From an uncultured Selenomonadales bacterium (GTDB taxonomy: Bacteria > Bacillota > Negativicutes > Selenomonadales > Selenomonadaceae): a stretch of DNA of 59,052 nucleotides. Each line of letters begins with the position of its first letter. The first letter of the stretch is position 1. Positions 2,109 to 58,978 of this stretch are shown here, piece by piece. The position numbers and the translations under genes are program-made. The notes under the pieces are model-generated. The model had not been told where the DNA came from. It saw only the letters and a program-made list of their open reading frames with translations, and searched no databases. The stretch is from NCBI GenBank assembly GCA_947165295.1, contig CAMUZU010000012.1:1-59052 (forward strand), read 5' to 3'.

Positions 2109-5100
2109 ATGACAGATACGTTTTTTGATCTGCAACGTTTCGCCGTGCTTGTCGGCGGCCAGAGCAGCTTCATTTGGCAGGACGGCGAACTTTTCGGCGC
2201 CGGTGCCAGCGCGGCTGTCGGCACGTCGAGCAACCCCGCTTACCTCGTTGCCAAAGACGGCGTTGCCGAAGCGGGCACGGGCACGGATGTTTATCTCAGC
2301 GGTGAAAAATCCTACTCGTTCTCTCTCGACGGCAAAGACGGCTGGTCGGCAAAACTCGGCAAAGACAACGTCGCACACGTGACCAACGGCGCAAGCGGCA
2401 TTGCTCTTGCGGGCTTGACGGGCTCGGATGCGGCTGTTTTGACAATCACCGGCGAATTCGCCGAAGACATTGGCGCGGACGTCACGACCACTGCGGAAAC
2501 CAAAGCAAGCCTCGCCGCCGACGGCACGTTGACTTTCGGCAAAGCTGTCGAAGGCGCGGCAATCAACCTCGGCGCGGGTGAAATTGCTGTTCTCAACAAA
2601 GGCGGCAACGATGTTGTCCTCAACAACGGCGCATTCAACGGCATTGACATCACAAAGAAAGCCACTTTGACTTCAAGCGACGGCACGGTTGCGCAAATCG
2701 TCACGGGCAACAACTCGATCACCATGTCCAACGGAAATATTGTGGACGTCAAAGCCGACAAAGACACCAACGCAACAATCGGCTCCGACCAAGTCATCGG
2801 CGGCGCAAAAGGCGTTACCATCAAAACTGCAGTCGGTTTCAACGTTCCTACTACCATCAACGGCACGACTTGGGACGAAATTACGGGCGGCGTCAGTTCG
2901 GTTGCGTTTGATTCGCTCGGCTCGGCGAAAATCGAAAACACGGGCGCAGTCGTCGTCACGGGTCAAGCAGGCGCAGTTGCCACGATTCAGAACCTCGACA
3001 CTGCGGGCGCAACCGTCAACGGCGTCAAAGTTGCCATGACGGAGCTTAACGAAGCCGAATCTGCCAACGTTGGTTTTGCGCTTGAAAACGGCGGCGTTTC
3101 TTCCGTCGACGTGAGCAAAGCTCTCGGAACAAACCTCGTCGCCTCGGGCGACCAATTGTTTGTCGTCAAAGCGGGCAACGCCGAACACATCGTTTCGACC
3201 GACGCAAGCTCCGTCACTTTCAACGCGACGGGCTCGCAAATCAATCTCGCTGTCGAAAAAGAAAAATCTTACGCTGCGGCGGGCGGCGGCAACGCACAGT
3301 TCCTCTTCGCGGAAAATGCAACGAACGTTTCGCTCAACAACACGACGGTTCAACTCGGCACGGCTGAAGGCGTCACCGCAACCGCCTCCGACGCGACCGC
3401 AGGCATCGAAAACCTCAACGGTCTCGACGTTGGCAGCAAAGTCAGCGTTGCGGGCGACTCCGACGGCTTCACCGCTGCATTTGACGCTGTCGAAGGCAAC
3501 GACGCGGTTGTCTTTGAAGTCAACAACGCTTCGATTCGTGCGGCGGGCATTGAAGGTCAGCAAGTCCAAATTTCCGTCAACGGCGCGGGCACCGAGGCTC
3601 TTGTCACCGGCATGAACACCACCGATCAAGTTTCCGTCGGCGGCACGGGCATTATTTATCACTTCAAAGATGCTACGAGCGACAACGCAGTCACCGCAAG
3701 CGCGGGCGAAGGCATGTACGTCACGCTCGACAGCACCGGCGGCATTGCGGACGCAATGGACGATGCCAACTACAAGAAACTCAAAGAAAACGACCAAGCC
3801 AAATGGGACGACATCGCTTCAATCGGCAACGACCAATACGTTCCCACCGTCACGGGCGACACCGTTCCCGCGAACCGTTCGGACGTTTACAATCAATTCT
3901 ACAACCTCAACACTTCCGACGCGGGTCAATCCACGCTTGCGGTCTTCTCCAATGAAGATTCGATCACGTTTGACACGGTTGCCAACCCGAACGGCATTAC
4001 CTTCACCGGCCGCGACAACACCAAGACGCTTGCCGAAAACGGTCATGTCACTTTGACGGCGGGCGCGGCAGTCGGCGCGGCTCCGATTAACATTCAGCGC
4101 AACGAAAGCGCGGCGGTTGTCGACGTTGTTGTCGACCTTCGCAACGCAACGCTTCCTTCCACGGTTGCAGTCGGCACGCTCGAAGACACGGTCAACGGCA
4201 ACGTCACCGCTTCGCACGCGATTTTCCTGAGCAACGCAGGCCCCGGCTACGTCGAAATCGGCAACTACGCCACGGGTCAAAACCAGATCTTCGCAGGCAC
4301 GGGCGGCGCGCAGATTCGTCACGACGGTCAACGTGCGACAATCGTCGGCAACACCGGCATTGACACCATCTGGGCAGGCAAGTACGACATCGTTGCAGGC
4401 GGCACGGGCGGCGACCAATTCTATGACAGCGCGGACTACACCATCACCGACTACAACGCGGCTGAAGGCGACGCTCTTATCGCGACGCGCTTGCACGGCA
4501 TTGAAGAAATCAACAAGAACAACATCAAGTACAACTACGACGCGGGCAACGAAGTCAGCTTCGGCGAAAGCCGCAACAGCTTCACAATCGGTCAAGACCA
4601 GAACGCGGCGCTCAACTTGAACGTTGCCATCATGGACACCGACGCTCGCATCATTGACAGCCGCAGTGTTGTCCTCGCGGGCGCAAACGGCGGCGCGGCG
4701 GACGCTTCAAGCCTCACTTCGGGCGCGCTCATCATTGCCGACGAATCCCGCAACGGCAATGCAGGCGACGCAGTTGTCGGTTCGGCTTACGCTGATGAAA
4801 TTTACATCGGTGCCAACGACGCGGTCAACGCGGGTGAGGGCAACGACTACATCACAATCGGCTCAATCTCCTCGACTTCGGGCGACGCCGGCGCAACCGT
4901 GTTCATGGGCGCGGGCAAAAACACCGTTTCGGGCTGGAGCTTCGGCTTCGACAAGAACGCGGGCAACACCCAACTTATCGCGGCGGAAGGCTTCGTCGGC
5001 TCGTTCGACAACGACCGCCTCTTGGTCACCGACGCCAACGGTTCGATGCTCTTTGACGATTCGGCAAAGACTTCCTATCACGGCGAATATGACGTTATCG

Positions 5101-7880: not shown

Positions 7881-7908
7881 GCCCCCGTCAATCGACGAGG
7901 GTTTTTTT
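7881..7908 (+). terminator. intrinsic terminator
   Basis: CCCCCGTC/GACGAGGG stem with one mismatch (about 7882-7901), then seven T. It ends the 82-residue gene. Triple-hairpin element a begins 25 bp further on. Confidence 0.8.
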
Positions 7909-7932
7909 GTTGCCCGAAACGCAATCGAATAT

Positions 7933-8035
7933 CCGGCCGTCATGGATGACGGCCGCAACGCTTGCGCGTGATACAGGATGTATCACAGCAAGCGCAGTTT
8001 CTTTGGTTACTTTCTTTGCTGCCAAAGAAAGTAAC
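7933..8035 (+). repeat. triple-hairpin element, copy a
   Basis: Three consecutive stems: a GC palindrome CGGCCGTCA/TGACGGCCG with loop TGGA; GATAC/GTATC with loop AGGAT inside a longer stem; and GTTACTTTCTTT/AAAGAAAGTAAC. It is flanked by the 8-bp direct repeat GCAATCGA (7921-7928 and 8041-8048). The right copy is the last codons of the adjacent GT9 gene, whose stop codon lies 3 bp from the element. Confidence 0.9.
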
Positions 8036-8037
8036 GT

Positions 8038-9180
8038 TCAGCAATCGACGACGCGACATTGATAAGCTCCGTGCACACGCGGAATTTCTTTGGCGGGCTG
8101 ACCGTAAGCGTCCAAAAGCTCGAAGACGTACTTCATGACGACGGCGACGGGAATTTTCTTCATGCACGCCAAATTGTCGTCGCCTGCACGCGGACAGGTG
8201 TGTTGACCGCACGGGTGGCACGGTTCGGGCGACTTAATGAGAACGTCCTTCGCGTCGTAAGGATAAAATCCCGGCACGGGCGACGCGCCGAACATCGTCA
8301 CAATCGGAATGTTTCGCGCAACGCCAATGTGCATCGGACCCGAATCCGTCGTTAAGAACAGGACGCAGTTGTCCAGAAAGCCCGCAAGTATCGCCAAGCT
8401 GAATTCGCCCGTGAAAATCTTCAGCCGTTCGTCGGAGCCGTGACGCATCTTCGCGACGCAACTTGAAACAATTTCCGTGTCCATCGTGCCGCCAAGAAAC
8501 GCAACGCCGTAACCGCGCTCAATCAAAATGTCCGCGCACTCGGCGAAATACGAATCAAGCCAACGTTTGGTAAGCCAACTTGCGCCGATATTGAACGCAA
8601 CGACTTTGACGCCGTCCGAAAAGTTGTCGTGAAAAATTTTTTCGGCCTCGCGTGACGCCGCGTCCGAAATCCACATTTCAAGTCCGTTGTCGAAAATTTT
8701 TTCAACGCCGCAAGCTTCCCGCAGAACGTCGAAGTGCGAATGAACTTGATGTTGCGTGCCGGGCATGTATTGCGTCTTGAATCCGTGCTTGATGTGACGC
8801 GCTATCGACGGGTTCGGTAGGGTCTTCGTGAACAGCCACGAGAACAGCGGCTTCGAGTAGCCGACGATTTTTTTTGCGCCGCTGAACGCCGCCAACGCGC
8901 TTGCCCGTTCGTTGCGGTGAAGGTTGATGACCAGGTCGAATTTCTTTGCGCGAATCTTAAAGATAAATTTCGCGAACGTCCACAAGTGGTCGTCGACGCC
9001 TTTTTTGTCAAGCAAAATGCATTCGTCAAGATTTTCATTGCGGTCGACGAGGTCGGCAAGTTTTTTGTCGGCAAGCAAGGCGATATGGTCGTTCGGGAAA
9101 TTTTTTCGCAAGGTCGTCAATGCGGGCGTGACCAACATTAAATCGCCCAAGTGCATCAGGTTGATAACAAGAATTTTCAT
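8038..9180 (-). CDS. GT9-family (heptosyltransferase-like) glycosyltransferase
   Basis: 380 residues. The start at 9180 gives the family opening MKILVINLMHLGDLMLVTPA and follows GAGGAG. The C-terminal half carries TTDSGPMHIGVARNIPIVTMFG-type sequence, the GT9 nucleotide-sugar site. These enzymes add heptose or related sugars to the LPS core on the inner face of the cytoplasmic membrane. The ATG overlaps the TGA of the upstream NhaC gene (ATGA), so the two are translationally coupled although functionally unrelated. The final codons (VVDC) lie in the short direct repeat flanking element a. Late cysteines (CHPCGQHTC) are common in related bacterial members. The exact sugar is unknown. Confidence 0.85.
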   Translation of the reverse strand: MKILVINLMHLGDLMLVTPALTTLRKNFPNDHIALLADKKLADLVDRNENLDECILLDKKGVDDHLWTFAKFIFKIRAKKFDLVINLHRNERASALAAFSGAKKIVGYSKPLFSWLFTKTLPNPSIARHIKHGFKTQYMPGTQHQVHSHFDVLREACGVEKIFDNGLEMWISDAASREAEKIFHDNFSDGVKVVAFNIGASWLTKRWLDSYFAECADILIERGYGVAFLGGTMDTEIVSSCVAKMRHGSDERLKIFTGEFSLAILAGFLDNCVLFLTTDSGPMHIGVARNIPIVTMFGASPVPGFYPYDAKDVLIKSPEPCHPCGQHTCPRAGDDNLACMKKIPVAVVMKYVFELLDAYGQPAKEIPRVHGAYQCRVVDC

Positions 9181-11988: not shown

Positions 11989-12055
11989 TCTGTCGTCGCG
12001 GCGAATTTCCTTCAAGAAATTTTGTCAACGGCAACAGACCGTCGCGAACGAAAAT

Positions 12056-12116
12056 CCGGCCGTCATGGATGACGGCCGCCGCCCGCGGGATTTTTTTGCG
12101 CCAAAAGAAAAGTAAC
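12056..12116 (+). repeat. triple-hairpin element, copy b (short)
   Basis: It carries the GC palindrome (CCGGCCGTCA/TGACGGCCG) and the AAAAGAAAAGTAAC end, but the middle hairpin and half of the last stem are missing. It lies 8 bp downstream of the hybrid kinase stop. CCGTCGCG on the left and CCGTCACG on the right form a possible imperfect flanking repeat. Confidence 0.75.
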
Positions 12117-14751: not shown

Positions 14752-15066
14752 GTGAAGAAAGTTCGCATTACCGTCGTCAAGAAAGTTCGCCACGACGATT
14801 TGATTGCCCGCTACGAAAACCCGATTGAAAACGCCTGCGACATGGTTGAAGGTTCAATCTTCGTCGCCAACGGTTGGCAACGTCCCGACGGCTTCTGTTT
14901 GAGCGCGTGGGAAACTCTGTCGCCGTTCGTTATGGCTCTGTCGCACGGTGCCGAAAACTTTTATTCGGGCTGGATGAAAAATCCGAAGTCCGCTTTGCTT
15001 TCATGCAACGACGGCTTCCGACCGGTGAGCTTCCTGCTTGAAACACTCGACGAAGACGCTGACTGA
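14752..15066 (+). CDS. TIGR04076-like small protein
   Basis: 104 residues with a GTG start, chosen because GGAGG ends 8 bases before it and the family opening KKVRITVVKK follows directly. The pattern of an early basic strand, a GFCLSAWETLSPFVMALSHG core and a late CNDGFRPVSFLLE strand matches small proteins annotated as TIGR04076. Their function is not established to my knowledge. Here the early Cys (residue about 26) and the CNDG Cys are kept. It is a monocistronic unit followed by element c. Confidence 0.75.
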   Translation: MKKVRITVVKKVRHDDLIARYENPIENACDMVEGSIFVANGWQRPDGFCLSAWETLSPFVMALSHGAENFYSGWMKNPKSALLSCNDGFRPVSFLLETLDEDAD

Positions 15067-15079
15067 CCGCGACGAATAT

Positions 15080-15185
15080 CCGGCCGTCATGGATGACGGC
15101 CGCAACGCTTGCGCGTGATACAGGATGTATCACAGCAAGCGCGGTTTCTTTTGGTTACTTTTCTTTGCCGCCAAAGAAAAGTAAC
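15080..15185 (+). repeat. triple-hairpin element, copy c
   Basis: A full-length copy nearly identical to copy a, with all three stems. It is flanked by the 7-bp direct repeat CGACGAA (15070-15076 and 15191-15197). It lies between a plus-strand gene end and the promoter of the next plus-strand gene. Confidence 0.9.
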
Positions 15186-15220
15186 ACACACGACGAACCG
15201 TCAACCGCCGACAAAAAGTT

Positions 15221-18573: not shown

Positions 18574-19356
18574 ATGGCGAACACAATCAACACCAACTAC
18601 CTGACGCAGTTCAAGACGTTCGACAAGCGTCCGACGACCGCGAACAAAACTGCCGTCACCGACGCCGCCAAAAACTTCGCGGGCGCAGATTCAACCGTCG
18701 AAATTTCAAGCGCAGGTCTCGACGCCCTGTCGAAGCTCAAAAGCGACACCGTCGACGAACAAACCGGCGGCGGCATTGGCGACGAAAGCAAGCTGTCCGA
18801 CAAGGCGAAAGGTTTCCTCGAAAACCTGCGCAAGAAGTACGGCGACTACGACTTCGTCATCTCCAACGACCTCGACGCGGCTGAAACTGTCGGCGGCACG
18901 AAGGAATATTCCGTCATGCTCACCGTCGACGAACTCGAACGCATGGCCGACGACGAAGAGTACGCCGCCAAAGTCATGGGTCAAGTCAAAGACGCGACCG
19001 CCACGCTTAAAGACTTGTCCGAAAAAGATCTCGGCGAAGGCGTGCAATTCTCGCAGCTGAGCATTTCGTTTGACGACCAAGGCAATCAAAAACTTTTCGC
19101 GTCGCTCGAAAAGATGACCGCCGACCAGAAGGAACGCCTTGACGCCGCACGCGAAAAACGCGCCGAAGAACAAAAATCCGCCGAAGCTCAAGCCAAAGCC
19201 GACGACAAGTCTTTGGACGACGAAGCCGACACCGAAGAACTTTTCGCGATAACCTTCAAGAGCGCGGACGTCGAAGCCGACAACGCCGACGACCTGCTGT
19301 CGAAAATTTTCAGCATCAAGTGGGACGAAATCGAAGACGAAACCGCCTACTTTTAA
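18574..19356 (+). CDS. DUF6033-like cytosolic protein
   Basis: 260 residues; TAAGGAGG precedes the ATG, and a TATAAT box lies at 18523-18528. The core KAKGFLENLRKKYGDYDFVI (about 75-94) followed by YSVMLTVDELERMADDEEYA (about 110-130) resembles proteins annotated DUF6033, whose function is unknown. The N-terminus is low-complexity (Thr/Asn), the middle is amphipathic, and residues 170-215 form a charged probable coiled coil rich in Ala/Glu/Lys. Highly acidic, no signal peptide. The stop codon TAA lies inside a 17-bp palindrome of the second repeat family (19347-19363). Confidence 0.75.
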   Translation: MANTINTNYLTQFKTFDKRPTTANKTAVTDAAKNFAGADSTVEISSAGLDALSKLKSDTVDEQTGGGIGDESKLSDKAKGFLENLRKKYGDYDFVISNDLDAAETVGGTKEYSVMLTVDELERMADDEEYAAKVMGQVKDATATLKDLSEKDLGEGVQFSQLSISFDDQGNQKLFASLEKMTADQKERLDAAREKRAEEQKSAEAQAKADDKSLDDEADTEELFAITFKSADVEADNADDLLSKIFSIKWDEIEDETAYF

Positions 19357-19382
19357 AAAGTAGCAAACAGTTGTCGCGACGT
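19347..19382 (+). repeat. 17-bp palindrome family, copy C, overlapping a stop codon
   Basis: CTACTTTT-A-AAAAGTAG (19347-19363) followed by the tail CAAACAGTTGTCGCGA, which is also found after copy D at 57527. The TAA stop of the DUF6033-like gene is inside the palindrome. Confidence 0.75.
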
Positions 19383-22459: not shown

Positions 22460-22483
22460 ATGAATCACCTTCGGGAGGTCAAC

Positions 22484-23014
22484 ATGATTTACAGAATTTA
22501 TACCGACGGCTCGTGTTTGGGCAACCCCGGCGCGGGCGGCTGGGCGGCCGTTATCGTCGACACGGACAATCGACGCGAAGAAATTTTCGGCGGCGACGCG
22601 CACACGACAAACAATCGCATGGAGTTGACGGCGGCCATTCGCGCTCTGGAAAAAATTTCTGCCGACGACACGGTCGAACTGTTCACCGACAGCAGCTACC
22701 TGAAGAACGCCTTCACCAACGGCTGGCTTGCCAAGTGGAAGCGCAACGGCTGGAAGACCGCCAATAAAAAACCCGTGCTCAATCGCGACTTGTGGCTTGA
22801 ACTTGACGCGCTGATTTCAAGCCGAACCGTAACATTTCATTGGGTCAAAGGCCACGCGGGACATTTCTACAACGAACGTTGCGATGCGTTGGCGCGAAGT
22901 TGTGCCGCCCGCATGAAGTCACAGCCGCCGCCGGTTGAAGTGCCGCGTATCGAACGCCCGAAAGTCAAGCCCGAAGAAAACTTGCCGCCGCGTGGTCAAC
23001 TGAGCTTGTTTTAA
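22484..23014 (+). CDS. rnhA: ribonuclease HI with C-terminal clamp-binding-like tail
   Basis: 176 residues; GGGAGG precedes the ATG. It cleaves RNA in RNA-DNA hybrids. Catalytic residues are all present: D8 (YTDGSCLGNPG), E47 (RMELTAAI), D69 (FTDSSYL), D134 (RCDALA), plus the conserved H124 region (VKGHAGH). Typical RNase HI ends near residue 145-155. Here a proline/charge-rich linker (about 146-170) is followed by GQLSLF at the very C-terminus, which fits the bacterial sliding-clamp (DnaN) binding consensus QL(S/D)LF. The tether would put the nuclease on the clamp for removal of RNA primers or R-loops at forks. The enzyme call is certain; clamp binding is inferred. Confidence 0.95.
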   Translation: MIYRIYTDGSCLGNPGAGGWAAVIVDTDNRREEIFGGDAHTTNNRMELTAAIRALEKISADDTVELFTDSSYLKNAFTNGWLAKWKRNGWKTANKKPVLNRDLWLELDALISSRTVTFHWVKGHAGHFYNERCDALARSCAARMKSQPPPVEVPRIERPKVKPEENLPPRGQLSLF

Positions 23015-23028
23015 CCGCGACGGAATAT

Positions 23029-23203
23029 CCGGCCGTCATGGATGACGGCCGCCCGCAGTTGAAACAGGATGTTTCACCTGCGGGCACGCGAGTCACGGCT
23101 AACGACAACGCAAGAGTCAACAACCCTGTGCTCCACGCAGTGGCGCTCCACGCGCAGTGGCGGCTTTCTTTGCTACTTTCTTTCGCCGCTCGAAAGAAAG
23201 TAG
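23029..23203 (+). repeat. triple-hairpin element, copy d (expanded)
   Basis: The GC palindrome, then a middle hairpin with changed arms but the same loop (GAAAC-AGGAT-GTTTC), then about 70 extra bases containing a short inner repeat (CTCCACGC.CAGTGGCG), then the CTACTTTCTTTCG/CGAAAGAAAGTAG stem. It lies just after rnhA. I see no clear flanking duplication. Confidence 0.85.
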
Positions 23204-26897: not shown

Positions 26898-26938
26898 AGT
26901 GACACGCTCCTTTCGACCGTGATAAGCAACGCGAATAT

Positions 26939-27039
26939 CCGGCCGACAGGACGTCGGCCGCCGCCCGCGGTTGAAACAGGATGTTTCACCTGCGGGCTGT
27001 TTTCTTTTGCTACTTTTCTTTTGCGCCAAAAGAAAAGTA
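26939..27039 (+). repeat. triple-hairpin element, copy e
   Basis: Variant arms: CGGCCGAC/GTCGGCCG with loop AGGAC, GAAAC/GTTTC with loop AGGAT, and CTACTTTTCTTTTG/CAAAAGAAAAGTAG. The arm changes are compensated, showing that structure is conserved. It lies between corA and rtcB, and its right end is 2 bp from the corA stop. Confidence 0.9.
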
Positions 27040-27041
27040 GA

Positions 27042-28010
27042 TCAGCCCCAGAACATGTGTTTGCGCCAAAAGACAATCGCCGCACAAATCGACGCGAGCA
27101 AAGCAATCGCAATGACAATGACGAATCCGAAAGTGTTTTCGGCAAGAGGCACGGGCACGTTCATTCCGAAAAAACTTGCGATAACCGTCGGCACGGCAAT
27201 AATAATCGTCATTGCCGCAAGAAATTTCATGACCATGTTTTGGTTGTTTGAAATTATCGACGAAAAAATGTCCGCCATCTGCGACAGAATCTGGCTGTAC
27301 ATCTCGACCATTTCGCGTGCCTGCTTGTTTTCGATGATGACGTCTTCAAGTAAGTCTTCGTCCTCCTCGAAAATTTCAAGGATGCCTTCGACGGAACGAT
27401 TGTTGCGCAGACGCAAAAGTTTCTCGAAGACCGCGTCGTTTGACCGCAAAGCCGCGTTGAAATAAGTCAAGCCGCGTTGCAACTCCATGAGCCGCAGTAT
27501 GTCCGCATTGCGCATTGACTTGCGTAACTGTTCCTCGATTTCGTCGGACAACTTGTTGATCTGCCGCAGGTACCGCAGATAAAACGTCGCCGACCGATAC
27601 AGAATCTCGAACAGAAACCGCGTGCGCTTGTACGTGTGGAAAAGCCGCGCCGTGCGTTGGTTGAAGCTTGACATTACGGGCGTTTCTTCCAGGCAAACCG
27701 TGATTATGAATTGTTTCGTCAAGATGATTGACAGCGGCAACGTGTCGTAACTTTCTTCTTCGTAAACAATCGGGACGTTCGTCAAAATCATGACCGAATC
27801 GCCCTCCGAATCCAAATGCGAGCGTTCTTCTTCGTCGAGTGCGGCGCGCAAAAAATCCGGCTCAACCTGCGTGAGTGAGCTGACTTCGCGCAGTTCATAC
27901 GGCGTCGGGTCGACGATGTTTATCCACGAGCCTTTCTGCAACGTTTTTAGCGTCAACTTTTCCAAGTGCCCCGACTCTTGCGATTTGTAGACCTCAACCA
28001 ACGGTATCAC
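27042..28010 (-). CDS. corA: CorA-family magnesium/metal ion transporter
   Basis: 322 residues. A large N-terminal cytosolic domain with long helices is followed by two C-terminal membrane helices; the pore signature GMNVPVP follows the first, and the chain ends in a basic KHMFWG. It forms a pentameric Mg2+ (or Co2+/Ni2+) channel. The start is uncertain: GTG at 28010 (MIPLVEVYK) has only a weak upstream site, while the TTG three codons later has AGGTGA at about 5 bases. The gene is isolated between elements e and f. Confidence 0.9.
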   Translation of the reverse strand: MIPLVEVYKSQESGHLEKLTLKTLQKGSWINIVDPTPYELREVSSLTQVEPDFLRAALDEEERSHLDSEGDSVMILTNVPIVYEEESYDTLPLSIILTKQFIITVCLEETPVMSSFNQRTARLFHTYKRTRFLFEILYRSATFYLRYLRQINKLSDEIEEQLRKSMRNADILRLMELQRGLTYFNAALRSNDAVFEKLLRLRNNRSVEGILEIFEEDEDLLEDVIIENKQAREMVEMYSQILSQMADIFSSIISNNQNMVMKFLAAMTIIIAVPTVIASFFGMNVPVPLAENTFGFVIVIAIALLASICAAIVFWRKHMFWG

Positions 28011-28099: not shown

Positions 28100-28228
28100 G
28101 TTACTTTCTTTCGGCGGCGAAAGAAAGTAACCAAAGAAAGCCGCGCCTGCTACGACGCATCCTGCGTCGTGCGACAGGCGGGCGGAAGCGCGCTGGCAAG
28201 CTTTCGCGCCGTCATCCATGACGGCCGG
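28100..28228 (-). repeat. triple-hairpin element, copy f (inverted)
   Basis: An inverse-orientation copy: GTTACTTTCTTTCG/CGAAAGAAAGTAAC, then ACGACGC/GCGTCGT with loop ATCCT, then a spacer and the GTCATCCATGAC palindrome. It is flanked by CGTTGC(G/A)GTTG (28088-28098 and 28236-28246). The dnaE promoter begins 22 bp to the right. Confidence 0.88.
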
Positions 28229-28250
28229 AAGTTCGCGTTGCAGTTGCGCA

Positions 28251-31713: not shown

Positions 31714-31750
31714 GCCACTTTAAAAGTGGCGGAACGGTTGGTGTGACCCG
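31714..31750 (+). repeat. 17-bp palindrome family, copy B
   Basis: GCCACTTT-A-AAAGTGGC (31714-31730) then the tail GGAACGGTTGGTGTGA. An imperfect 16-bp repeat of the dnaE stop region, TTTCCGCACGTATTGA, lies on either side (31680-31695; 31823-31838 with TG for CA). Confidence 0.75.
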
Positions 31751-33122: not shown

Positions 33123-33125
33123 GAT

Positions 33126-33229
33126 CTACTTTTCTTTTGGCGCAAAAGAAAAGTAGCAAAAGAAAACAGCCTGCGATGATACATCCTGTATCATGGCGCA
33201 GGCATTGCGGCCGACGTCCTGTCGGCCGG
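33126..33229 (-). repeat. triple-hairpin element, copy g (inverted)
   Basis: CTACTTTTCTTTTG/CAAAAGAAAAGTAG, then GATAC/GTATC with loop ATCCT, then CGGCCGAC/GTCGGCCG. It starts 4 bp after the carboxypeptidase stop. A weak flanking match (TT(T/C)GCAT) is at 33114-33120 and 33233-33239. Confidence 0.88.
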
Positions 33230-33259
33230 ATTTTCGCATTGACGTTGGGAGGTCTTTAC

Positions 33260-41022: not shown

Positions 41023-41125
41023 CCGGCCGACAGGACGTCGGCCGCGTCGCCTGCGCCATGATACAGGATGTATCATCGCAGGCTGCTTTCTTTGGTTACT
41101 TTCTTTCGCGCCGAAAGAAAGTAAC
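41023..41125 (+). repeat. triple-hairpin element, copy h
   Basis: CGGCCGAC/GTCGGCCG with loop AGGAC, TGATAC/GTATCA with loop AGGAT, and GTTACTTTCTTTCG/CGAAAGAAAGTAAC. It lies between 18-bp direct repeats derived from the recO 3' end, the best evidence in the window that this element inserts with target duplication. Confidence 0.92.
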
Positions 41126-41138
41126 GTAACACGTCAAA

Positions 41139-41231
41139 GTTTCAGAGCTTCGAGTTCGCGAATAAAGTTAACGGACTTCAAGCCGCTACCCAAGACCGAG
41201 TGAACATAGTCGACAAAAAAATTTTCCGCCG
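41139..41231 (-). pseudogene. duplicated 3' end of recO (fragment)
   Basis: About 93 bp matching 41319-41411 at an offset of exactly 180 bp with three mismatches. It would encode the last 31 or so RecO residues and a TGA stop. It has no start and lies downstream of the real recO stop, separated by palindrome copy A and its tail. Confidence 0.88.
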
Positions 41232-41267
41232 GTCGCTTTAAAAGCGACGGAACAGTTGGTGTGAACC
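41232..41267 (+). repeat. 17-bp palindrome family, copy A
   Basis: GTCGCTTT-A-AAAGCGAC (41232-41248) then GGAACAGTTGGTGTGAACC. It starts at the exact edge of the duplicated recO fragment, and its tail (to about 41318) ends where the true recO copy begins. Confidence 0.85.
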
Positions 41268-41313
41268 GTAATGTTTTCGTCGCAAAAAATTTTCTCTTCG
41301 ACGGAGATGTTCG

Positions 41314-42060
41314 TTACAGTTTCAGAGCTTCGAGTTCGCGAATAAAGTTGACGGACTTCAAGGCGCTGCCCAAGACCGAGTGAACATAGTCGACAAAAAA
41401 ATTTTCCGCCGCGTCCAGTTGCTTAGAGTTGAATTGTAACTTCGTGTCGGCGCGCCAATCGAACTCAAGCATCGTCGCAAAAGTTTTTCGCAGACCGACG
41501 GGATACGGGCGACTTTCCGTGGCGAAGTCGACACACGCGTTGCACACAGCTCCGCCGTCAATCAAACTTATCGCCGCGTCGCCGACAATTTCCCGTCCGC
41601 AATGAACGCAACGACTGAAGTTGAGTTGCACGCCGCTTGTTTCCATGAATTGGCAGGCTCCGACCAGCGCAATAATTTTTGGCGTCCGTGTGCTGAGCGC
41701 GGGCAACGAATTCATCAGCAGGTTAAAAGTTTCGACGTCGGCTTGTCGCGGCAAAGTCATGCGATTGACAATTTCAAAGAACAACGACGCGTAAGCCAAT
41801 CGATTTAAATCCCGCGTGATGTCGTAGAAGTGCAGGACGTCCGCTTCGCGCAGTGTGTCAACTTGCGTGCCGTGCGACAGTTCCGCCGAAATGTGGTTGA
41901 ACATTTGTGTCGCGCCCGACAGCGGACTTCGCGCCCGTCGACAGCCGTAAGCGTTGACTTCGAGCTTGCCGAATTCTTTGGTGAACAGCGTAACCACTCT
42001 GTTTGCGTCGCCGAAATCGTCCGTCTTGAGCACGACGGCTTCAACGTTGAATGTTTCCAT
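41314..42060 (-). CDS. recO: DNA repair protein RecO
   Basis: 248 residues, normal length. RecO loads RecA onto SSB-coated DNA with RecR. N-terminal OB fold (VEAVVLKTDDFGDANRVVTLFTKEFG), helical core and zinc finger CVHCGR...CNAC (about 161-185). The ATG at 42060 follows GGAGG by 7 bases. The 5' end (25 bp) and 3' end (about 93 bp and 18 bp) are each duplicated next to the gene, in association with hairpin elements. The gene itself appears intact. Confidence 0.93.
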   Translation of the reverse strand: METFNVEAVVLKTDDFGDANRVVTLFTKEFGKLEVNAYGCRRARSPLSGATQMFNHISAELSHGTQVDTLREADVLHFYDITRDLNRLAYASLFFEIVNRMTLPRQADVETFNLLMNSLPALSTRTPKIIALVGACQFMETSGVQLNFSRCVHCGREIVGDAAISLIDGGAVCNACVDFATESRPYPVGLRKTFATMLEFDWRADTKLQFNSKQLDAAENFFVDYVHSVLGSALKSVNFIRELEALKL

Positions 42061-42065
42061 GATTC
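42041..42065. repeat. 25-bp direct repeat, recO copy
   Basis: A 25-bp sequence starting TCAACGTTGAATGTTTCCAT is found perfectly at 42041-42065 and 42176-42200. This copy holds the recO start codon. The other copy forms the end of the DUF502 gene. Confidence 0.95.
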
Positions 42066-42158
42066 AGCCTCCGAACTTCACTGAGACGGTTTTGTCAACG
42101 TCGGACACGCGGCGAATCGGTTGCGGTAATGATAACGTTGCGGCGCGAAAATTCTTCC

Positions 42159-42175
42159 CCCGCTTTTAAAGCGGG
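42159..42175 (-). repeat. 17-bp palindrome family, copy E
   Basis: CCCGCTTT-T-AAAGCGGG. It abuts the 25-bp duplicate at 42176. Together with the adjoining 93 bp it makes up the 110-bp insert between the two direct repeats. That insert also supplies the GGAGG ribosome site now used by recO. Confidence 0.88.
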
Positions 42176-42808
42176 TCAACGTTGAATGTTTCCATGATTC
42201 GCCAACTTGTCTGCGGGGACGTGCGCGGTTATCGTGCCCGCCGTCAAAATGAATTGCAACGCGTCCTGCGGCAACATGTTCAGCGGGATAACGTCCGACT
42301 TCTTCACGAAAAAATTCATGCCCGCCGTCATGTTCATGCTCCACGGCATGTAAACGCAAACATAATCGTCGCCGAGCCGCTGTTTGACCGCTTCGGGCAC
42401 CGTCAACAGCAGAAAGCCGATAACGTAACTTTGATTGTACGGCACGAGCACGACGCTTTTAAACATCGTGTCGGACTGCAGCACGGCTTTGGACACCTGC
42501 TTGACCGATTTATAAATGACTTTGACGACGGGAATTTTATTCAGCAGCGACTCAAAGAATCCGAGAATTTTTTCCGAAAAATAATTGCCGCTCAACACGC
42601 CGACAAGCCAAATGCCGACCAAAACAATCAGCAAGCCGAGGCCGGGAAATTTCACGGGCATGTAACGGCTGATTAATCGCTCCGTCAACTCGAACAGCCA
42701 CACCACGACGAAAACCGTTATCGCGGGCGGAATGACAATCAACAGCCCCTTGAAGAAACTGCTTGAGATCTGTTCGGTGAAGGACTTCGGTTTGTCTTTA
42801 TCGTTCAT
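42176..42808 (-). CDS. DUF502-family membrane protein
   Basis: 210 residues. Two N-terminal membrane helices (about 18-40 and 57-77) are followed by a soluble domain containing IPVVKVIYKSVKQVSKAV and SYVIGFLLLTVPEAV, characteristic of DUF502. Function unknown. The start lies inside the end of the aminotransferase gene (11-bp overlap, GGAG site). The last codons NHGNIQR-stop are a shifted reading of the 25-bp sequence that also contains the recO start, which implies the two genes once overlapped. Confidence 0.88.
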   Translation of the reverse strand: MNDKDKPKSFTEQISSSFFKGLLIVIPPAITVFVVVWLFELTERLISRYMPVKFPGLGLLIVLVGIWLVGVLSGNYFSEKILGFFESLLNKIPVVKVIYKSVKQVSKAVLQSDTMFKSVVLVPYNQSYVIGFLLLTVPEAVKQRLGDDYVCVYMPWSMNMTAGMNFFVKKSDVIPLNMLPQDALQFILTAGTITAHVPADKLANHGNIQR

Positions 42809-56227: not shown

Positions 56228-56244
56228 CTACTTTTCTTTTGGCG
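56228..56244 (-). repeat. truncated half-hairpin of the triple-hairpin family
   Basis: CTACTTTTCTTTTGGCG matches the first arm of the stem seen in copies e and g but has no partner arm. Copy i begins 7 bp further on, which suggests that one element inserted into or replaced an older one. Confidence 0.6.
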
Positions 56245-56250
56245 TGTTGT

Positions 56251-56353
56251 GTTACTTTCTTTCGGCGCGAAAGAAAGTAACCAAAGAAAGCAGCCCGACG
56301 GACTCCGCGTCACGCGTCGTACGTCGGGCGCGGCCGTCATCCATGACGGCCGG
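56251..56353 (-). repeat. triple-hairpin element, copy i (inverted)
   Basis: GTTACTTTCTTTCG/CGAAAGAAAGTAAC, a middle hairpin with diverged arms (CCCGACG...CGTCGGG), then the GTCATCCATGAC palindrome. Confidence 0.82.
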
Positions 56354-56373
56354 TGTTACCGTTGCTGTTGCCG

Positions 56374-56407
56374 AAAAAAAATCCCCGCCCGAACGTGCGA
56401 GCAGGGT
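56374..56407 (-). terminator. terminator of the ribosomal protein operon
   Basis: On the minus strand CCCTGCTCG/CGGGCGGGG (9 pairs with wobbles, 56383-56407), then A and eight T. It follows rplL. Confidence 0.82.
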
Positions 56408-57526: not shown

Positions 57527-57564
57527 GCACTTTTAAAAAGTGCCCAAACAGTTGTCGCGATTTA
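57527..57564 (+). repeat. 17-bp palindrome family, copy D
   Basis: GCACTTTT-A-AAAAGTGC (57527-57543) then CCAAACAGTTGTCGCGA, the same tail as copy C at 19347. It lies inside the ribosomal operon between rplA and rplJ. Confidence 0.75.
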
Positions 57565-58791: not shown

Positions 58792-58859
58792 GAAAACACC
58801 TCCTTTCGGTGTGCTATCACAACGCGACGTTACAGCGGTTGACAAAACCGTCACGTTGT

Positions 58860-58965
58860 CCGGCCGTCACGGATGACGGCCGCTCCGCCTGCGCGTGATA
58901 CAGGATGTATCACAGCAGGCGCGGCTTTCTTTGGTTACTTTCTTTCGCCGCCGAAAGAAAGTAAC
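58860..58965 (+). repeat. triple-hairpin element, copy j
   Basis: GTCACGGATGAC palindrome inside GGCC arms, GATAC/GTATC with loop AGGAT, and GTTACTTTCTTTCG/CGAAAGAAAGTAAC. It is inserted between nusG and rplK, which are usually adjacent in one operon. Confidence 0.9.
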
Positions 58966-58978
58966 ATGAATACATGCG

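Follow-up and report, generated by a model that had tools for sequence, protein, structure and literature searches.

A dispersed hairpin element of Selenomonadaceae and its probable insertion, with target duplication, at the overlap of DUF502 and recO

To our knowledge, the spread of short REP-like repeats in bacteria is largely unproven. In eukaryotes, SINE and LINE insertions present target duplications of variable length and one constant end. For the element described here the nearest precedent found is YPAL/RU-2 of Yersinia, described as a small non-coding palindromic insertion element of 168 bp that lacks the usual TA termini and has duplications of 3-26 bp (PMC2229807). The bacterial MITEs Correia, RUP and ERIC are described as non-autonomous elements of less than 200 bp (PMC2229807). 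A survey of REP sequences distinguishes GTAG and CGTC families, the CGTC family being without a dedicated transposase, and its main text does not contain the word "duplicat" (PMC3733652).

We analysed a stretch of 59,052 nucleotides from an uncultured Selenomonadales bacterium (the window), which is contig C12 of genome G000 and carries copies of a dispersed element, family 1. Compared by description, this element resembles YPAL/RU-2 as a small non-coding palindromic insertion with variable target duplications, but its clean duplications reach 94 bp instead of 3-26 bp and its inserts are mostly of 50-130 bp instead of 168 bp, with a constant hairpin end that mostly adjoins the repeat. With REP/REPIN and RAYT systems it shares short, high-copy palindromes, some of them in composites; in contrast to these, no GTAG or CGTC tetranucleotide was found as a foot at one end of the sampled heads, the element-rich genomes have no Y1 match, and the target duplications are long. 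Like bacterial MITEs, family 1 is non-autonomous and shorter than 200 bp, and its presence or absence varies between relatives, but the window insert has no terminal inverted repeats and the duplications of the family are not of a fixed short length. The comparison with SINE and LINE insertions is limited by the failure to find a reverse transcriptase gene in the richest genomes, by an RNA intermediate that is putative only, and by a far-end truncation that is here a candidate. Among the titles and abstracts of open-licence papers, we found no description of this family or of long variable duplications in Selenomonadaceae. We rate the family as belonging, in general kind, to the small non-autonomous palindromic insertions, and as new in its different ends, its longer duplications and the lack of a mobiliser among our findings.

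The junction on which the analysis is centred lies in a minus-strand series of genes in the order aminotransferase (PF00202), DUF502 (PF04367, 4.9e-27), recO (RecO_N/RecO_C, TIGR00613) and fur (PF01475). The sequence TCAACGTTGAATGTTTCCATGATTC is present twice, with 100% identity and a start-to-start spacing of 135, and the plus-strand end of the DNA between the two copies is CCCGCTTTTAAAGCGGG (42159-42175). The features of the junction are the following.

42176..42808, minus strand: DUF502 gene, intact by reading frame and PF04367
42176..42200, minus strand: direct repeat copy 1 (F1), with the last codons of DUF502 and its TGA; adjoins the head hairpin
42159..42175, minus strand: head hairpin of 17 bp, CCCGCTTTAAAAGCGGG, the constant end of the element
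42096..42175, minus strand: part of the insert homologous to other G000 copies, with the head, the linker GGAAGAATT and the second stem-loop region
42066..42175, minus strand: insert of 110 bp, missing from G054, G050 and G078
42066..42095, minus strand: insert tail of 30 bp, without homology to other sampled copies
42041..42065, minus strand: direct repeat copy 2 (F2), with the recO ATG and first codons
41314..42060, minus strand: recO gene, intact by reading frame, RecO_N/RecO_C and TIGR00613

The perfect 25-bp repeat around a 110-bp insert, reported in a preliminary description of this DNA, was recovered with the same coordinates and identity, and both of its reading frames were also found: the recO protein begins METFNVEA from the ATG inside the one copy, and the other copy, read in a different frame, encodes the C-terminal ...ANHGNIQR* of DUF502 (NHGNIQR and the TGA in that description). 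The window has five family-1 heads (19347, 31714, 41232, 42159 and 57527), in agreement with the name copy E given there to the 17-bp palindrome. Its proposal that the insert brought the GGAGG site of recO holds in part: GGAGG (42068-42072, minus strand, 7 nt ahead of the ATG) is inside the insert, but it lies in the last 30 bp, past the homology that spans 80 of the 110 bp, where membership of the element is not demonstrable. This tail has no significant similarity to the DUF502 flank, and a search of the window with Rfam at gathering thresholds gave one tRNA and no other match.

Direct repeats were scored when their right edge lay no more than 3 bases from the start of a head, with 14 as the threshold. 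The window repeat scores 25, and at least 14 was reached at 10 of 500 random anchors in G000, which are probably real duplications in this repeat-rich genome. By estimate, a perfect 25-mer recurring this close is not expected in random sequence. An original duplication longer than 25 bp was considered and rejected: the 30 nt before each copy align at chance level (843 of 5000 random 30-mers were as good), and the duplication is therefore taken as 25 bp.

The same junction was then compared within the genus, where recO was found in 62 of 66 genomes and 30 loci were examined; the compared relatives that bear names are uncultured Selenomonadaceae or Selenomonadales assemblies, many of them from ruminant guts. 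DUF502 and recO overlap by 20 bp in eight loci (G054, G050, G078, G058, G045, G044, G056 and G041), by 1 bp in seven and by 5 bp in one, while 11 loci, the window included, have a gap of 15-423 bp and DUF502 was not found in three. Outside the 30-locus count, G015 is a ninth genome with the 20-bp overlap. The closest relative found by recO score, G054 (94% amino-acid identity in DUF502, 90% in recO), has a single copy and the 20-bp overlap at this place (ggcgaatcATGGAAACATTCATAACTGA followed by agcc; GGCGAATC ATGGAAACATTCATAACTGA AGCC). Since relatives have a single copy with the overlap, the overlap is, judged from the sequences, ancestral, and the state of the window, an insertion with 25 bp duplicated, is derived. 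An alignment of this junction in relatives had been set beforehand as the test of an ancestral overlap of about 20 bp, duplicated by an insertion that left both proteins intact; the insert-free junction of G054, with one copy and overlapping frames, and the whole DUF502 and recO genes of the window bear out this history.

The same description had named, as a case against insertion, relatives that carry both copies without the palindrome. G016 (recO 85%) literally touches this case, with a degenerate old overlap copy at the DUF502 end (NGNIKS*) and the recO start 258 bp further on; its copies are degenerate and its 258-bp insert is a different one, which contains a DUF4405-like gene and no family-1 head. 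Because the nearer relative G054 is empty, we take G016 as an independent event. A small gene also lies between DUF502 and recO in G020 (L057) and G068 (L058), and by eye it resembles that of G016 (L043/L002). The junction of G014 (L055/L003) lies in a pure tandem duplication with a period of about 168 bp and without the element; in G021 several recO starts form a small array, spaced by an element with another head, GAGCAACGTGACGTTG; and G068, read by eye against G020, has an extra insert beginning GCAACGTGACGTTGC between copies of about 28 bp. In the genus, the DUF502-recO junction has repeatedly served as a landing site, though not always for this element.

Two further places near this junction differ between the window and its relatives.

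41132..41231, no strand: second event, repeat copy 1 (100 bp, 95%), which duplicates the recO 3' end in part
41232..41311, plus strand: second event, insert of 80 bp with the head GTCGCTTTAAAAGCGAC at 41232-41248, bracketed by the 100-bp repeat
41312..41411, no strand: second event, repeat copy 2, the real recO 3' end
42774..42807, no strand: empty site of a family-1 insertion at the DUF502 start, filled in G050 and G078

The recO 3' end, present in two copies in the window, is single in each of G016, G050 and G078. G054 has one recO 3' end beside fur, but its assembly breaks inside recO and no weight is put on it there. A second partial recO 3' end beside recO was also observed at G068:C15:38059-38202, G014:C10:9641-9736 and G024:C107:6379-6525. 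G050 and G078 have in common a family-1 insertion at the DUF502 start, with identical boundaries in both, and the window and G054 have one copy; G016 also has one copy, with changed upstream sequence, and could be a deletion remnant. Relatives carry, in addition, intergenic inserts of imperfect short-period repeats (TTCCTAACTCC, AAGCTTAAAGCT, GCATTACGCATT) at places where the window has no insert or a different one (L156 at about 14653 and 16229, L160 at about 1012 and 2553, L092 at about 5351, L155 at about 9020).

In G000, at least 46 other places match the 110-bp insert in part at E<=10, and 43 of these do so at E<=0.001; the count is a lower bound, with 40 of 113 first-look candidates scored. 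Copies of the family consist of a hairpin head, usually N5-TTTAAAA-N5', followed by GGAACAGTT or similar and, in many, by a second stem-loop; body subtypes occur. Sampled heads begin CCCGC, GTCGC, GCCGC, GCCAC, CTACT, GCACT or GGTTAC and then run into GGAAC, GAAC or AAAC. In an alignment of 17 copies, which had passed a filter requiring a stem of at least 4 so that pairing is partly built in, five of the seven head-stem pairs were changed on both sides and 98.3% of the cells were paired, and two-sided change was seen in none of the seven outer pairs and one of the four inner pairs of the second stem. When copies were searched by the body only, the head 17-mer paired at six or more of the seven outer positions in 13 of 13 (G000), 13 of 13 (G010) and 4 of 4 (G054) copies, compared to 8, 8 and 10 of 2000 random places, and four to six different heads occurred among the body-found copies of G000 and G010. 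On the head-first strand, paired columns contain 14 G.T against 4 A.C, with a single pair accounting for six of the 14.

The head pattern, with up to two mismatches, was counted 93 times in G000, 176 times in G054 and 209 times in G010, and not at all in 28 of the 66 genus genomes. Outside the genus, 196 genomes of a 200-genome class sample have at most one match each, and all 15 matches listed carry two mismatches, at about the level of the reversed control. By local GC skew, the heads divide between the replication strands as 6:4, 7:8 and 2:1, small counts with low power to reveal a bias. The three other heads of the window are as follows.

19347..19363, plus strand: family-1 head CTACTTTTAAAAAGTAG; repeats do not exceed the control level
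31714..31730, plus strand: family-1 head GCCACTTTAAAAGTGGC; repeats do not exceed the control level
57527..57543, plus strand: family-1 head GCACTTTTAAAAAGTGC; repeats do not exceed the control level

Direct repeats scoring at least 14 adjoin 18 of 35 copies in G000 (360 kb), 13 of 35 in G010 (400 kb) and 6 of 24 in G054 (362 kb), whereas 3 of 500 random anchors in G010 and 10 of 500 in G054 reach this score. The repeat boundary falls exactly at the head in 11 of the 18, 8 of the 13 and 3 of the 6. Cases with another head nearby (3, 4 and 1 in G000, G010 and G054) or with an element-end-like motif in the repeat (4, 0 and 2) were dropped, a filter not applied to the random-anchor controls, which left 11, 9 and 3 clean cases (23 in all). 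Their repeats measure 18-94, 14-86 and 14-52 bp, 14-94 bp overall; 15/23 (8, 6 and 1) have an exact boundary and 8/23 one that is off by 1-3 bases. Perfect clean repeats are found at L223 (26 and 30 bp), L250 (31 and 52 bp) and L079 (21 bp). The longest repeats (102, 127 and 139 bp) are all among the dropped cases; the 139-bp one was rejected as a clean duplication, an older, decayed copy seeming to precede it. In a separate count of 52 distinct copies, arrays included, 26 have repeats and 16 an exact boundary. Tandem F-E-F-E-F arrays of element and flank were observed in G000 at L081:11878-12170 and 3737-4060 and at L082:10565-11000.

No repeat scoring 14 was found at the other copies, 17 of 35 in G000, 22 of 35 in G010 and 18 of 24 in G054, and some of these may be old. 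At 22474 and 28030 the window is empty and G054 is filled with family-1 inserts, with duplications, by eye, of about 5 and 9 bp; the lower end of the length range is therefore small, and a copy with no detected repeat is not necessarily old.

For 24 of 35 inserts, homology to other copies stops at 21-119 bp and, with a tolerance of 3 bp, does not reach beyond the insert; for the remaining 11 it passes the insert end, from arrays, shared tails or an over-long repeat. On these alignments the far end is not fixed. Two repeat-flanked inserts, of 51 and 58 bp, are without the CGCCGCG end of the second stem-loop and are the best truncation candidates. A 41-bp insert, with another head upstream, and a 50-bp insert, with an element-end motif in its repeat, were rejected as truncated copies. 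At the head side, CG directly precedes GCC or GTC heads in 12/15 (G000), 10/20 (G010) and 6/10 (G054) cases, and GA directly precedes CCC heads in 12/16, 7/10 and 4/8, six of the twelve G000 cases being one nested composite, against background frequencies of 0.11-0.12 for CG and 0.06-0.07 for GA. CG stands before CCC heads in 4/16, 1/10 and 3/8.

A second dispersed family, of about 110-125 bp, has up to three hairpins, whose stems vary from copy to copy (heads of the type GTTACTTTCTTT..AAAGAAAGTAAC, inner TGATACAGGATGTATCA, GGCCGTCAT..ATGACGGCC). Its copies in the window are:

7905-8039, family 2
12040-12115, family 2
15064-15186, family 2
23013-23203, family 2
26927-27043, family 2
28100-28235, family 2
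33123-33241, family 2
41023-41138, family 2
56238-56381, family 2
58844-58966, family 2

Repeats scoring at least 12 adjoin 5 of 49 sampled family-2 copies, with 16-30 bp and a boundary 7-11 bp before the hairpin, and one of the five coincides with the repeat of a family-1 case. Six composites in the sample, with family 1 nested in family 2 (L073, L077, L078:12000, L079:17454, L086:10167 and L088:10062), resemble each other closely and have apparently spread as one unit; their repeats are of 7 bp only, at control level.

The filled and empty junctions, together with the head-anchored repeats of other copies, make it very probable that a dispersed element was inserted, with target duplication, at the DUF502/recO overlap. 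Set against this reading are the repeat-less copies, the clean cases whose boundary lies 1-3 bases off the head (8/23), the two filled and empty sites with duplications of only about 5 and 9 bp, the duplications of the junction without the element in G016 and G014, and the failure to find a mobilising enzyme among the RVT_1, Y1_Tnp and Cas1 families. With bins that are 98% (G054), 89% (G010) and 80% (G000) complete, in which enzyme genes could be missed, RVT_1 (PF00078) was not found in G000, G054, G010, G078 and G016 (G050 has two matches, and 21 of 66 genus genomes are positive), nor Y1_Tnp (PF01797) in G000, G054, G010, G050, G078 and G016 (7 of 66 match, 6 over the cut-off), nor Cas1 (PF01867) in G000, G054, G010, G078, G050, G016 and G023 (it was found in G048, G045 and G058).

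How the element would be inserted is a more tentative matter. Tandem duplication of a resident element would not yield F-element-F with a single element; a one-step staggered insertion fits, and so does a template switch that returns upstream. We give slightly less than even chances to a copy-type insertion, in which one strand of the target would open next to the head, often after CG or GA, and the opposite strand at a variable distance from there; the element would be copied in from the head onward, and gap filling would convert the stagger F to F-element-F. The template may be RNA (retroposition) or DNA (template switching, or a single-stranded DNA copy).

Template switching, in which a stalled 3' end would jump to an element head, copy part of it, return upstream and re-synthesise F, is possible, although we lean against it. 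It requires no dedicated enzyme, CG or GA would serve as a 2-bp microhomology, both being enriched before heads compared to background, in many inserts a stretch without a match separates the end of the homology from the second copy of the repeat, and the pure tandem duplication of G014 lies at the same junction. Alone, it leaves unexplained the frequent switch at the head and the 93, 176 and 209 heads of G000, G054 and G010 next to none in 28 of 66 genomes. A dedicated route unlike known bacterial transposition, copying from the hairpin head with a stagger of about 5 to about 100 bp, in the manner of eukaryotic target-primed retroposition but lacking a recognisable reverse transcriptase, is doubtful.

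Target-primed retroposition is marked by a constant end together with a stagger of variable length. SINE-like retroposition, where an RNA ending at the head hairpin would be reverse-transcribed at a nicked target to give variable duplications, agrees with both marks as observed here, with the two inserts of 51 and 58 bp and with the lack of terminal inverted repeats in the window insert. We nevertheless consider it unlikely: RVT_1 was not found in five of the genomes, the excess of G.T over A.C is on the head-first strand and not on the strand needed as RNA, and truncation is only a candidate feature, with homology passing the insert end in 11/35 and body subtypes among the copies.

Single-strand transposition of the REP type by a Y1 (HUH) transposase would account for the hairpin, which the window insert has at one end only, and for the high copy number, but this chemistry is not known to leave a target duplication and Y1_Tnp was not found in the six genomes named above, which makes it very unlikely. 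Little credence is due to a non-autonomous transposon of the classical type, a MITE mobilised by a DDE transposase: the element is short, dispersed, non-coding and flanked by target duplications, but their unfixed length in the 23 clean cases contradicts this reading, which would call for a transposase without a fixed stagger, and none of four inverted pairs joins both ends of the window insert. It is equally improbable that the junction was simply duplicated locally in tandem, as seen in G014, and gained the element later or by divergence; against this stand the dispersed matches of the insert in G000, the fact that E-F in tandem does not yield F-E-F with one E, and the recurrence of head-anchored repeats in three genomes. 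An artefact of metagenome-bin assembly, suggested by named relatives that are all MAGs or uncultured assemblies, has a negligible probability, as the separate assemblies G050 and G078 share one insertion with the same boundaries and the same pattern is present in G000, G010 and G054.

The insertion with target duplication has left footprints that are unusually legible: close relatives offer both filled and empty sites, the boundaries are sharp and some duplications are perfect, and the steps of cutting and copying are therefore directly testable. It is also a route to place DNA between overlapping genes with neither of them broken, which bears on the evolution of operon junctions and spacers. 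As an insertion near the end of a gene keeps one complete copy of that end where the gene needs it, a long duplication explains the survival of such insertions in dense operons.
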